Below are positions 27,585 through 58,224 of a stretch of DNA of 64,000 nt, in pieces. Both the position numbers and the translations under genes were made by a program. Source of the DNA: Haloglomus litoreum (lineage in GTDB: Archaea; Halobacteriota; Halobacteria; Halobacteriales; Haloarculaceae); assembly GCF_029338515.1 (NCBI RefSeq), contig NZ_CP119988.1:2604001-2668000 (forward strand). The letters run 5' to 3'. The notes under the pieces were generated by a model. That model did not search any database. It worked only from the letters and a program-made list of their open reading frames with translations, and was not told where the DNA came from. The stretch's first letter is position 1. The number at the start of each line of letters is the position of its first letter.

Positions 27585-27592
27585 TCTTTATG
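27585..27592 (+). promoter_or_regulatory. TATA-like box of the acyl-CoA ligase gene
   Basis: TCTTTATG, centred 28 bases before ATG 27617. The first ATG (27590) falls inside this box, which argues it is not the start codon. Confidence 0.6.
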
Positions 27593-27616
27593 CCCCGACC
27601 GCCGGTCCCTCCGGGC

Positions 27617-29260
27617 ATGGAACACCACAAGGGCGAGCCCCTGAGTCACTTCGGCGACGTGCCGGCGATGGCGGCGGACCGGTACGGCGACAAGACCGCG
27701 TTCACCTCCTTCGGGCAGGAACTCTCCTTCGCTGAACTCGACGCCCAGGCGAATCAGGCCGCGAACCTGCTCGTCGAACAGGGCGTCGAGCCGGGTGACC
27801 GGGTCGGGCTGTTCATCCCGAACACGAACCAGTTCCCGCCGGCGTACTTCGGCATCATCCGCGCGGGGGCCGTGGCGGTCCCGCTCAACCTCCGGATGGA
27901 CCCGAACACGCTGGGCTACGTCGTCAACAACTCCGAGGCCGACATCGTCATCGCCTCGCCCGTCCTCGCCGACGAGGCCAAGCAGCTCGCGAGCGCGACG
28001 GACATCGAGACGCTCCTCCTTCCCGGCGTCACGGACGACGGCATCGTCAACTACTCGCAGGCGATGGCCGACCAGCCGACCGACTTCGACCGGCCCGAGC
28101 GCGAGCCCTCGGACATCGCCTGCCAGCCGTACACCTCCGGCACCACGGGCAAGCCGAAGGGCGTCCTCCTGAGCCACGAGAACCTCCTCTCGGCGGTGGA
28201 GGCGTACACGAAGGGTGGGCTGGCGGTCGACGCCGACGACTCCATCGTTCTCGTCCTGCCGCTGTTCCACATCTTCGCGCTGAACGCCATCATGTCGACC
28301 TACCTCTACAAGGGCGCGACGATGCACCTGCAGCCCCAGCCCGACGCCGAGAACATGCTGACGGCGCTGGACGAGCACGACGTGACCACGATGGCCGGGG
28401 TGCCGGCGATGTACACGATGATGTGGCAGGAGTACCGCGGCAACGAGGAGCAGTACGACCTCTCCTCGCTGCGCTACGTCAACTGCGCCGCCGCGCCGCT
28501 GCCGGACAACGTCCGCCGCACCATCGAGGAGGCCTGGGGGGTCCCGATGATCGAGGGCTGGGGGATGACCGAGACGGCCCCGGCGGGGACTATCGAGCCC
28601 TCGCACGGTGTCCGAAAGGAGGCCGGCTGTATCGGCCCCGTGCTGGAGGTGTGTGACGTCAAGATCGTCGACCCGGACACGCGCGAGACGAAGGTGTCGA
28701 CGGAGCAGCTGAAACCGTTCCCGGACCAGGACCTCGACTTCGAGGGCGAGGAGACGACCGGCGAGATCGCCATCACGGGCCCCAACATCTTCGAGGGGTA
28801 CTTCAAGCTGCCCGAGAAGACGAAGGAGGTGTTCGACGACGAGGGCTACTTCCTCACCGAGGACATCGCGCGCGTCGACGAGGACGGCTACCTCTGGATG
28901 GTCGACCGTGCCGACGACATGATCATCGCGGGCGGGGAGAACATCTACCCCGCCGAGGTCGAGGACGCGCTCTACGAGCACCCCGACGTCGCCGAGGCCG
29001 GGGTCTGTGGCGCCCCGCACGCGGTCAAGGGCGAGGCGCCCGTCGCGTTCGTCGTCCTCGAGGAGGGCTCGGACCTGACCGAGGAGGAGCTCCGGAAGTT
29101 CACCCTCGACCACGTCGCCACCTACGCCCACCCGCGGCGCATCTGGTTCGTCGACGAGCTCCCGCGCTCGGCCACGCAGAAGGTCCAGCGCTTCCAGCTC
29201 GAGGAGATGGCCAAGGAGCGCCTGGAGGGCGGCCAGCTAGAGAGCGGCGAGGAGCTGTAG
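27617..29260 (+). CDS. Long-chain acyl-CoA ligase (AMP-binding superfamily)
   Basis: 547 residues. Adenylation core with P-loop YTSGTTGKPKG at 172-182, the EGWGMTETAP A5 motif, and C-terminal hinge/A8 motif (DDMIIAGGENIYPAEVE) with catalytic Lys region NATQKVQRF. It activates a carboxylate with ATP to acyl-AMP, then to acyl-CoA. Chain length is not predictable. Haloarchaea keep fatty-acid catabolism genes though their lipids are ethers. Convergent with the MTH865 gene across a three-hairpin element. Confidence 0.92.
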   Translation: MEHHKGEPLSHFGDVPAMAADRYGDKTAFTSFGQELSFAELDAQANQAANLLVEQGVEPGDRVGLFIPNTNQFPPAYFGIIRAGAVAVPLNLRMDPNTLGYVVNNSEADIVIASPVLADEAKQLASATDIETLLLPGVTDDGIVNYSQAMADQPTDFDRPEREPSDIACQPYTSGTTGKPKGVLLSHENLLSAVEAYTKGGLAVDADDSIVLVLPLFHIFALNAIMSTYLYKGATMHLQPQPDAENMLTALDEHDVTTMAGVPAMYTMMWQEYRGNEEQYDLSSLRYVNCAAAPLPDNVRRTIEEAWGVPMIEGWGMTETAPAGTIEPSHGVRKEAGCIGPVLEVCDVKIVDPDTRETKVSTEQLKPFPDQDLDFEGEETTGEIAITGPNIFEGYFKLPEKTKEVFDDEGYFLTEDIARVDEDGYLWMVDRADDMIIAGGENIYPAEVEDALYEHPDVAEAGVCGAPHAVKGEAPVAFVVLEEGSDLTEEELRKFTLDHVATYAHPRRIWFVDELPRSATQKVQRFQLEEMAKERLEGGQLESGEEL

Positions 29261-29407: not shown

Positions 29408-29543
29408 CCGCGCGCCGCAGGCGCGCGGTTCACCGGCACGAGGGCGCCGTAGGCGCCCGAGTGCCGGCCGTTTTTCTGAACGTTTTTTGCCGTGAGCGGT
29501 TCGCCGGCGGCGCCGGCGAACCCGAGCGGGAAAAAACGCTCGT
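29408..29543. terminator. Three-hairpin element A, likely bidirectional terminator
   Basis: Three consecutive stems. H1: CCGCGCGCC 29408-29416 with GGCGCGCGG 29420-29428. H2: CCGGCAC 29433-29439 with GTGCCGG 29461-29467, inner GGGCGCC/GGCGCCC 29442-29458, then a T5 run at 29471. H3: GGTTCGCCGGC 29498-29508 with GCCGGCGAACC 29512-29522, bracketed by CGTTTTTT (29481) and AAAAAACG (29531-29538). T-runs on both strands suit termination of both convergent genes. It starts on the minus strand directly after the stop codon at 29544. A second copy lies at 57619-57768. Confidence 0.72.
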
Positions 29544-29795
29544 TTAGATGAGGTCCTGGTCCTCGAGCTGCTCCATCACGTCGTCGACGAAGTCCTCGGC
29601 GGAGTCGTAGGGGAAGTCGCCGCCGCCGAGCTTCGTGTTGAGCTCCATGGCGGTCATGGAGAAGTCGCCGGACTCGAACTTCGTGCCCGGCCCGTTCGGG
29701 AGCGCGGGAACGAGGTCCATCGGGCTGTTGATCGGGTAGTCCGCACCCTCGAACGCGTCGACCATCTGCTGTCGGAGGTCATCCTTGTCGACCAT
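29544..29795 (-). CDS. MTH865 family protein (small, EF-hand-like helical fold)
   Basis: 83 residues from ATG 29795: MVDKDDLRQQMVDAFEGADYPINSP, then LPNGPGTKFESGDFSMTAMELNTKL and DFPYDSAEDFVDDVMEQL. This spacing of ADYPI, LPNG and DFPY matches the MTH865 family of small archaeal proteins, whose solved member is a helical bundle; no function is established. The stop codon lies against element A, so its mRNA should end in those hairpins. Confidence 0.8.
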   Translation of the reverse strand: MVDKDDLRQQMVDAFEGADYPINSPMDLVPALPNGPGTKFESGDFSMTAMELNTKLGGGDFPYDSAEDFVDDVMEQLEDQDLI

Positions 29796-56293: not shown

Positions 56294-57508
56294 ATGTCGG
56301 TGCAACTCGAGACCATCAGCGAGGAGACGGTCCGACAGCTGAGCGAGGAGCGCGACGAGCCCGAGTGGCTCCTCGAGCAGCGGCTCGACGCCCTGGAGGC
56401 GCTCGACGACCTGCCGTTCCCGGACGTCATCCAGACACCCGGCCGCAAGTGGACGGACCTGGCAGACCTCGACTACGAGTCGATGGTCGATCCGTTCTCC
56501 CAGACCGAGGAGAAGGAGTGGGAGGCCGACGAGGGCATCGACGTCCTCCCGTTCCACGAGGCCGTCGAGGCCGAGGAGTCCCTGGTTCGGGACGCCTTCG
56601 GCTCCGTCGTCGACCCGGAGACGAACTACCTGACCGCGCTGTCGACGGCGCTGTTCACCACGGGGACGGTCATCTACGTTCCGGAGGGCGTCGACGCCGA
56701 GGACGTGACCATCCGGACGACGATGAACGGCCGGTCGCTGTTCAACTACACCCTGGTCGTCACCGAGAAATCGTCGTCGGTGACCATCCTGGAGCGCCAG
56801 GAGACGGGCGAGGACCTCGACGGGTCGCGCTACTACTCCGGGCTGACCGAGATCGTCGGCGGCGAGAACGCCTACGTCCAGTACGGCAGCCTGCAGGACC
56901 TCGACCAGACGACGTACAACTACCAGCTGAAGGAGGCCGAGGTCGACACCTACGGCACGGTCGACTTCATCGACGTGAACATCGGCTCGCGCCTGACGAA
57001 GGCCTCCGTCGAGACGCACCTGAACGGTGACTCCTCGGAGACGAAGATGGTCGGGGCCTTCTACGGCCACGACGACCAGCACTTCGACATCGACGCACGC
57101 GTCTGGCACAACGCCGAGCACACGACCGCCGACCTCGTCACGCGCGGGGTCATCGACGACCGCGCGCGCTCGGTGTACGAGGGCGTCCAGAACGTCGGCC
57201 GCGAGGCCTGGGACACCAGTAGCTACCAGCGCGAGAACACGCTGATGCTGAGCGACGAGTCCGAGGCCGACGCCTCGCCGAAGCTCATCATCAACAACCA
57301 CGACACCGAGGCCAGCCACTCCGCGACGGTCGGACAGGTCGACCAGCAGGACCTGTTCTACATGACCTCGCGCGGCGTGAACGAGCGTCTGGCGAAGAAC
57401 ATGCTCGTCGAGGGGTTCTACGTCCCCGTCCTCGAGGAGATCGAGGTCGAGGAACTCCGCGAGGAGCTCACCGAGCGGGTGCGCGAACGGCTCCGGCAGC
57501 GGGAGTAA
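56294..57508 (+). CDS. sufD: SufD, Fe-S assembly partner of SufB
   Basis: 404 residues. Shorter paralogue of SufB with the same beta-helix repeats (GTVIYVPEGVDAEDVTIRT, GENAYVQYGSLQDLDQTTYN) and end motif EASHSATVGQVDQQDLFYMTSRGVNERLAK. The His of SufD that helps cluster ligation should lie in the EASHSAT stretch. No SufS/SufU nearby, so sulfur donor genes are elsewhere. Followed by a 110-base spacer and element B. Confidence 0.94.
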   Translation: MSVQLETISEETVRQLSEERDEPEWLLEQRLDALEALDDLPFPDVIQTPGRKWTDLADLDYESMVDPFSQTEEKEWEADEGIDVLPFHEAVEAEESLVRDAFGSVVDPETNYLTALSTALFTTGTVIYVPEGVDAEDVTIRTTMNGRSLFNYTLVVTEKSSSVTILERQETGEDLDGSRYYSGLTEIVGGENAYVQYGSLQDLDQTTYNYQLKEAEVDTYGTVDFIDVNIGSRLTKASVETHLNGDSSETKMVGAFYGHDDQHFDIDARVWHNAEHTTADLVTRGVIDDRARSVYEGVQNVGREAWDTSSYQRENTLMLSDESEADASPKLIINNHDTEASHSATVGQVDQQDLFYMTSRGVNERLAKNMLVEGFYVPVLEEIEVEELREELTERVRERLRQRE

Positions 57509-57618: not shown

Positions 57619-57768
57619 ACGCGCGCCGAAGGCGCGCGTTTCACCGGCACGAGGCCGCGAAGCGGCCGAGTGCCGGCATTTTTTCTGAACGTTTTTTGCG
57701 ACGAGCGGTACCCGCAGACCGGCGGCTTCGCCGCCGGTCAAGTGGCACCCGAGTCGTCAAAAAAGCTC
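57619..57768. terminator. Three-hairpin element B, second copy of the 29408 element
   Basis: H1: ACGCGCGCC 57619-57627 with GGCGCGCGT 57631-57639. H2: CCGGCAC 57644-57650 with GTGCCGG 57670-57676, inner GGCCGC/GCGGCC (57653-57667), then T6 at 57679. H3: GACCGGCGGC 57717-57726 with GCCGCCGGTC 57730-57739, bracketed by CGTTTTTT (57690) and CAAAAAA (57758-57764). Shared single-strand pieces with element A: CACCGGCACGAG, CGAGTGCCGG, TTTTCTGAACGTTTTTTG. It abuts the stop codon at 57769 and faces sufD. Confidence 0.72.
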
Positions 57769-58224
57769 TTAGAAGTCCGGCAGGTCCTCGGGCGGCTCGT
57801 AGTCCGCCTCCCAGTCGATGTACTCCTCCTTGAGGGTCTCGCAGACGATCTGGCCGAGCTCCGTGAGCCCGGCGTTGATCGCCGAGACGGTGCCCCAGGA
57901 GTCGAGTTCGGGGTGGAGGTCACGGACCTTCCAGTCCTCCGGCAGCCCGGGCGCGTGGTAGCCGACGCGGTCGGCGAAGTCGTCCCAGAAGAAGTCGAAG
58001 CGCGACGGCAGGTCGAGGTCGATCGCGATCTGCCAGTCGTCCTCGTCCATCTCGGCGTGCTCGGCCCACTCGGCGAACGCCTCCTCCCAGGCTCCGTCCT
58101 CGAGGAAGGCCTGGAGTTCCTCGCGGCGGTAGTCGTCGCCCTGGACCTCGGCGTCGTCGTAGTCGTCCGGGTCCAGGTTCGGCTCCAGTTCCGGCGGCGC
58201 CGGTGGCTCGACGTCGAGTCCCAT
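57769..58224 (-). CDS. 151-aa very acidic haloarchaeal protein, unknown function
   Basis: From ATG 58224: Pro/Glu/Asp-rich start (PPAPPELEPNLDPDDYDD), then EELQAFLEDGAWEEAFAEWAEHAEMDEDDWQIAIDL, DFFWDDFADRVGYHAPGLPEDW and a helical end. Many Trp and acidic residues. TATA-like GATAAAG on plus (58249-58255) is centred 28 bases upstream. Stop codon touches element B. No known fold. Confidence 0.7.
   Translation of the reverse strand: MGLDVEPPAPPELEPNLDPDDYDDAEVQGDDYRREELQAFLEDGAWEEAFAEWAEHAEMDEDDWQIAIDLDLPSRFDFFWDDFADRVGYHAPGLPEDWKVRDLHPELDSWGTVSAINAGLTELGQIVCETLKEEYIDWEADYEPPEDLPDF

Follow-up and report, generated by a model that had tools for sequence, protein, structure and literature searches.

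Two three-hairpin elements in the 64,000-nt stretch of Haloglomus litoreum DNA analysed here (the window, 2604001-2668000 of the 4,695,480-bp Haloglomus chromosome) belong to a repeat family of about 35 copies in this chromosome. The family was previously unlabelled and is absent from Rfam: no Rfam family matches the element, scores at copy 1 fall far under the gathering cut-off, and the sole match in the window is a tRNA. A search of the open-access literature found no description of the element. Paired differences between the stems of its copies reflect a conserved structure and have arisen mostly by swapping of hairpin modules, not by stepwise compensation. The element adjoins the 3' ends of genes, where it is probably a dispersed, recombining, bidirectional T-tract terminator.

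A repeat family in Haloglomus

An earlier, sequence-only reading of the window described two three-hairpin copies, at 29408-29543 and 57619-57768, and every stem and shared word is present there (Table 1). The pair proved real, but two was far too small a number, and the further copies keep their pairing. With up to 2 mismatches allowed, the word TTTCTGAACGTTTTT turns up at 30 sites of this chromosome (its reversed pattern at 0), and a related word at 18-32 places in each of four same-genus genomes; a longer family word has 0 matches in 242 other genomes of the order. A covariance model, R1, comprising H2 and the T-tract core and built from 20 distinct copies, matches copy 1 at 29429-29491 (E 3.4e-18) and copy 2 at 57640-57700 (E 9.7e-21). 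Its matches in four Haloglomus genomes number 35 (this chromosome), 36, 41 and 26, and once weaker matches elsewhere are counted it reaches 25 of 43 genera. Among the named genomes scanned, those of Haloglomus irregulare and H. halophilum and the MAG QS_4_70_19 carry the element.

Table 1. Parts of the two window copies and the genes on either side (positions are those of the window).
Feature	Positions	Strand	Basis
Copy 1, H1: CCGCGCGCC-GCA-GGCGCGCGG	29408..29428	+	sequence, fold
Copy 1, H2: CCGGCAC-GA-GGGCGCC-GTA-GGCGCCC-GA-GTGCCGG; tandem GA internal loop, GNA triloop	29433..29467	+	sequence, fold
Copy 1, double T-tract T5-CTGAACG-T6, terminator-like for + strand transcripts	29471..29488	+	sequence
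Copy 1, H3 and its base stem	29489..29543	no strand	sequence, fold
Copy 1, gene A: MTH865-like family protein (PF07747), stop adjoins element	29544..29795	-	
Copy 1, convergent neighbour: AMP-binding (acyl-CoA synthetase-like) protein	27590..29260	+	
Copy 2, H1: ACGCGCGCC-GAA-GGCGCGCGT	57619..57639	+	sequence, fold
Copy 2, H2: CCGGCAC-GA-GGCCGC-GAA-GCGGCC-GA-GTGCCGG	57644..57676	+	sequence, fold
Copy 2, double T-tract T6-CTGAACG-T6	57679..57697	+	sequence
Copy 2, H3 with base stem (CGAC-GA-G...C-GA-GTCG)	57698..57768	no strand	sequence, fold
Copy 2, gene A: 151-aa protein, no Pfam match, stop TAA adjoins element	57769..58224	-	
Copy 2, convergent neighbour: SufBD-like protein (PF01458)	56294..57508	+	

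Read in the sense of the gene whose stop codon adjoins the element (gene A), the layout runs stop codon, a few nucleotides, T6, base stem, H3, base stem, A6, linker, A6, H2, GTGAAAC, H1, TATGCA; on the opposite strand the hairpins come first, followed by T6-linker-T6. The linker is CGTTCAG in most Haloglomus copies. H2 of the window copies contains a 2x2 GA/GA internal loop (CAC-GA-G.../...C-GA-GTG), while H3 has a longer base stem, in which its T6 pairs with A6. The right ends of both copies adjoin minus-strand stop codons (TTA at 29544 and 57769): the A6 of copy 1 at 29531-29536 is a T6 for gene A, directly past its stop, and copy 2 has its A6 at 57759-57764 and a GCTC end (GAGC-T6 in gene sense). 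A second Haloglomus type, with the linker TCTGCACC and GCACC ahead of T6, is found at the orthologous gene ends of sister species. Past H1, five loci have short, imperfect repeats of the GTGTCACGGGCGCGGTCCTGTTGCTG type.

Covarying stems and exchanged modules

Across 20 distinct rows of H2, 94.6% of cells are paired and 9 of the 13 pairs have changed on both sides. The count of compensatory pairs for which the sequence-only reading had called gives 41 both-side cells, against 12.4 in shuffles; the covariation score is reached in 0 of 500 shuffles, and the pairing collapses on a one-column slide. The outer H2 stem is 100% paired in 12 distinct stems (24 both-side cells against 8.5). Full complementarity between the triple before T6 and that of the linker holds for 30 of 40 extracted rows (six are chance viral matches), compared with 13 in shuffles (0/10000), and all 13 distinct rows pair. 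In two alignments (A1 and A2) the rows were excised and put in register by hand, favouring pairing, a bias that the slid controls address in part; a third, A3, was left out, MAFFT having displaced its 8-bp stems by one column. The idea that the linker directly repeats the pentamer ahead of T6 was rejected: such a relation holds for self-complementary dinucleotides only, whereas complementarity holds for others too. H2, the outer stem and the base triple all covary, which bears out the earlier claim in so far as structure is conserved above sequence.

The route by which the paired changes arose is a separate matter. Orthologous sites were compared in 44 pairs with gene A at least 80% identical (median 92.5% over 45 pairs compared). 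Median identity there is 56% in the left half of the element, 62% in the right half and 52% in flanking intergenic sequence, and halves at least 80% identical occur in 5 pairs on the left and 8 on the right, 3 pairs having both. Modules at orthologous sites are mostly either near-identical or unrelated, the left and right halves being replaced independently; within one genome, loci have the left half in common with one copy and the right half with another, with the breaks at the core. Because orthologous halves differ and copies are mosaics, a hairpin is typically replaced whole, its complementarity arriving with the module. The copy at 1496677 joins the linker TCTGCTCC to an H2 of the CCGGCAC type, and core and hairpins thus assort. 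Across the set there are point-level both-side changes as well, but since hairpins are swapped as whole modules, stepwise compensation deduced from any two copies is a weakened inference. The paired changes between the two window copies thus do indicate a conserved structure, as had been claimed; they do not record stepwise compensation, since the difference consists mostly of ready-made hairpin blocks.

Recurrent two-hairpin modules of 55-65 nt, for example TCGTGGAATCG..CGATTCCACGGGCAATCAGAACG..CGTTCTGATGACG and TTCGAGAGAC..GTCTCTCGTCATCACGAGAGAGC..GCTCTCTCGAACGAC, are inserted in stems or loops of the element at nine Haloglomus loci and at a locus of another genus. Some of them recur in more than one genus, and they have the look of small mobile repeats in their own right.

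Gene ends in Haloglomus and across Halobacteria

With genes called by a home-made codon-usage script, about 95 of 100 oriented Haloglomus copies have on their single-T side a minus-strand gene whose stop lies at the element; the other (left) neighbour is convergent in 56 and tandem in 39 of the 95. A run of at least four Ts lies within 12 nt of the stop in 78 of 98 Haloglomus copies. Only 2 of 55 window genes have T5 or longer within 40 nt of the stop, and both window elements supply a T6 there. By Pfam, genes A include those for ribosomal protein L15e, RNA polymerase A'', glutamine synthetase, prephenate dehydratase, a ProRS-type synthetase and AICAR transformylase; enolase and GlyRS, entertained as gene identities, gave way to AICAR transformylase/IMP cyclohydrolase-like and ProRS-type synthetase matches. 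The A'' gene of one genome, G001 (L163:2643-4493), includes an intein splicing domain (PF14890). In the proS region of G000, each of two convergent genes has an element of its own, the two standing back to back; for this reason an orientation switch between species once proposed there is withdrawn.

The layout extends beyond the genus. The pattern T6-N5..10-T6-G recurs with other linkers in many genera, the linker words of relatives elsewhere in Halobacteria being 7-8 nt long, and CAAAAAATCTNNNCCAAAAA is found in 57 of 292 Halobacteria genomes and 27 of 78 genera (reversed-pattern controls 0). Outside Haloglomus, 26 cases have a sense gene on the T-run side, and in 23 of them the T-run begins 4-11 nt past the stop (mode 6 nt); a Halobellus limi plasmid copy begins at the annotated end of an ABC-transporter gene. 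One locus has a pair of elements whose linkers differ (CGTTGATG and TCTGGACC), either one nested in the other or the two immediately side by side. Six viral-contig matches to the class-wide core are AT-rich chance matches that lack the architecture, and a search of phages for the element gave no matches.

Many genes A have orthologues with no element. At gene 57769-58224, the element-less orthologues in G001 and G002 end one residue later (..DLPDF* versus ..DLPDFD*), and G003 may keep a decayed remnant, GAGCGTTTCGGACGACTCCGGGT; the polarity of gain and loss is therefore not certain in every case.

Termination, mobility and known systems

A bidirectional terminator is the best reading because T6 adjoins the stop of gene A while hairpins and two T-tracts face opposing traffic. 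RNA polymerase leaving gene A would meet T6 a few nucleotides past the stop and halt as at other archaeal T-stretch terminators. Opposing transcripts, from a convergent gene or antisense where the neighbour is tandem, would traverse H1 and H2, which on that strand carry predicted tandem G-A mismatches and GNA triloops, before T6-linker-T6, and would then stop. Copies would be gained and lost at gene ends; the framework would be inherited as a repeat family whose hairpins change places as complete modules, the likely means being recombination between copies, or gene conversion, at their conserved core. Termination, its aid by the hairpins and exchange by recombination are what we infer. In vivo in Haloferax volcanii, termination reaches 95% of transcripts at a T5C stretch and 59% at a hairpin motif (PMC7237163).

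Some features sit poorly with this reading. H3 lies past the T-tracts whichever way transcription runs, and a pure terminator has no need of the GA/GA that the base stem of H3 retains on the + strand (48 loops). The 39 of 95 copies with a non-convergent left neighbour have their hairpin and double-T side turned to no known transcript, and exact conservation of the linker word across families is more than T-tracts require.

Predicted 2x2 GA/GA internal loops number 140 on the + strand (that with T6-linker-T6) against 2 on the minus strand, and the three-nucleotide loop has the form GNA or TNC in 207 of 279 element hairpins against 83 of 859 in coding sequence, the closing pair being C-G in 247 of the 279; on the + strand GNA:TNC is 116:14 in H1 and H2, upstream of the double T, and 71:44 in H3, all these being counts over related copies, not independent events. 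Both GNA loops and tandem G-A pairs of the sheared kind are stable features of single-stranded DNA, and RNA has them too. In these predicted folds, the strand bias of mismatches and loops speaks for a single folded strand and against a symmetric cruciform, the DNA form put forward earlier. The polarity of H1 and H2 would fit a role in RNA of the + strand, where both precede the double T; the GA/GA polarity of H3 would go beyond the need of such a role.

The main rival reading is a small transposable element. Its folded single DNA strand would be the substrate of a trans-acting transposase, as for PATE-, SMR- or REP-like elements, with strand-specific GA mismatches and GNA triloops as recognition features and termination as a side effect; we hold this possible but rather unlikely. 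GA/GA polarity in all three hairpins, the excess of C(GNA)G-type triloops over coding hairpins, end words identical across the class, and the precedents of Haloquadratum SMR-A and PATE (PMC3119063) speak for it. So do direct repeats of 85, 66 and 26 bp, copied from the neighbouring gene end, around three copies outside Haloglomus (a fourth is flanked by a 38 bp direct repeat, tRNA-like sequence), but the lengths differ and target duplications sought around Haloglomus copies were not found. The Y1 transposase domain PF01797 is present in the 4 Haloglomus genomes and in G100; the element has no linked transposase, however, and this profile of the general Y1 domain detected none in G005, G007 and G058, which all carry elements. 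Copies are, moreover, anchored at a nearly fixed distance from stop codons, and we know of no such near-fixed distance among PATE/SMR/REP-like elements. The terminator and transposon-like readings may both hold together: class-wide haloarchaeal mobile terminators, short elements, would insert directly behind stop codons via a folded single DNA strand distinguished by its GNA triloops and tandem G-A pairs, and once in place would terminate transcription for the host in both directions, with hairpins reshuffled between copies. We offer this synthesis tentatively and with considerable doubt.

Stem covariation and the + strand polarity of H1/H2 loops and mismatches would suit a 3'-UTR RNA element of the convergent transcript, whose tandem G-A hairpins would serve RNA stability or protein binding, not termination; such a role is improbable, as the element is tied to the stop of the opposite-strand gene, 39 of 95 copies have no convergent gene and Rfam offers no match. 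GC-rich hairpins are common in a 70% GC genome, but chance look-alikes made of GC-rich palindromes and T-runs deserve hardly any credence, given the covariation, the empty reversed-pattern controls and the shared tail TTCTGAACGTTTTTTG, found at 2 places only in the window at up to 3 mismatches where 0.05 are expected (two reached in 0 of 100 shuffles).

If the bidirectional terminator reading is right, gene ends across Halobacteria bear a recognisable repeat-derived terminator from which transcript ends are predictable, and paired empty and occupied gene ends form a natural set for testing what terminators do. Structural covariation by whole-hairpin swaps would be a caution for covariation methods that assume stepwise compensation.

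Like archaeal T-stretch terminators, the element has T5-T6 just 3' of genes, on both its strands; unlike them, it frames the T-tracts with three covarying hairpins and a conserved linker and forms a dispersed repeat family (PMC7237163). The view that such elements are not simple U-tract terminators holds for the added hairpins but understates the likeness, since each strand bears T5-T6 tracts of the kind that terminate in Haloferax (PMC7237163). Among Haloquadratum repeats, SMR have terminal inverted repeats and PATEs IS605-like ends; SMR-A target other mobile elements, inserting into near-terminal palindromes of IS605-type transposons or PATEs, and nested insertion into palindromes occurs alongside differing repeats at one site ('SwitchRepeats') (PMC3119063). 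The present family resembles them as short non-coding haloarchaeal repeats with palindromes, nested insertion and 'SwitchRepeats' (PMC3119063), but its copies adjoin stop codons of ordinary genes, and it is set apart from SMR-A (HqIRS42/43/55) and PATE by their descriptions. Haloarchaeal small mobile repeats and PATEs, together with bacterial REP/BIME, are the nearest published kinds. REP/BIME are dispersed palindromic repeats at gene 3' ends with strand-specific, mismatched hairpins; the element shares the dispersed palindromes at gene ends and the strand-specific fold, and differs in sequence, architecture and its double T-tract. Bacterial bidirectional intrinsic terminators have a hairpin and then a T-run on one strand and a T-run on the other, an arrangement also seen here, whereas this element is archaeal, repeat-derived and modular and has a further T-tract right at the stop codon.
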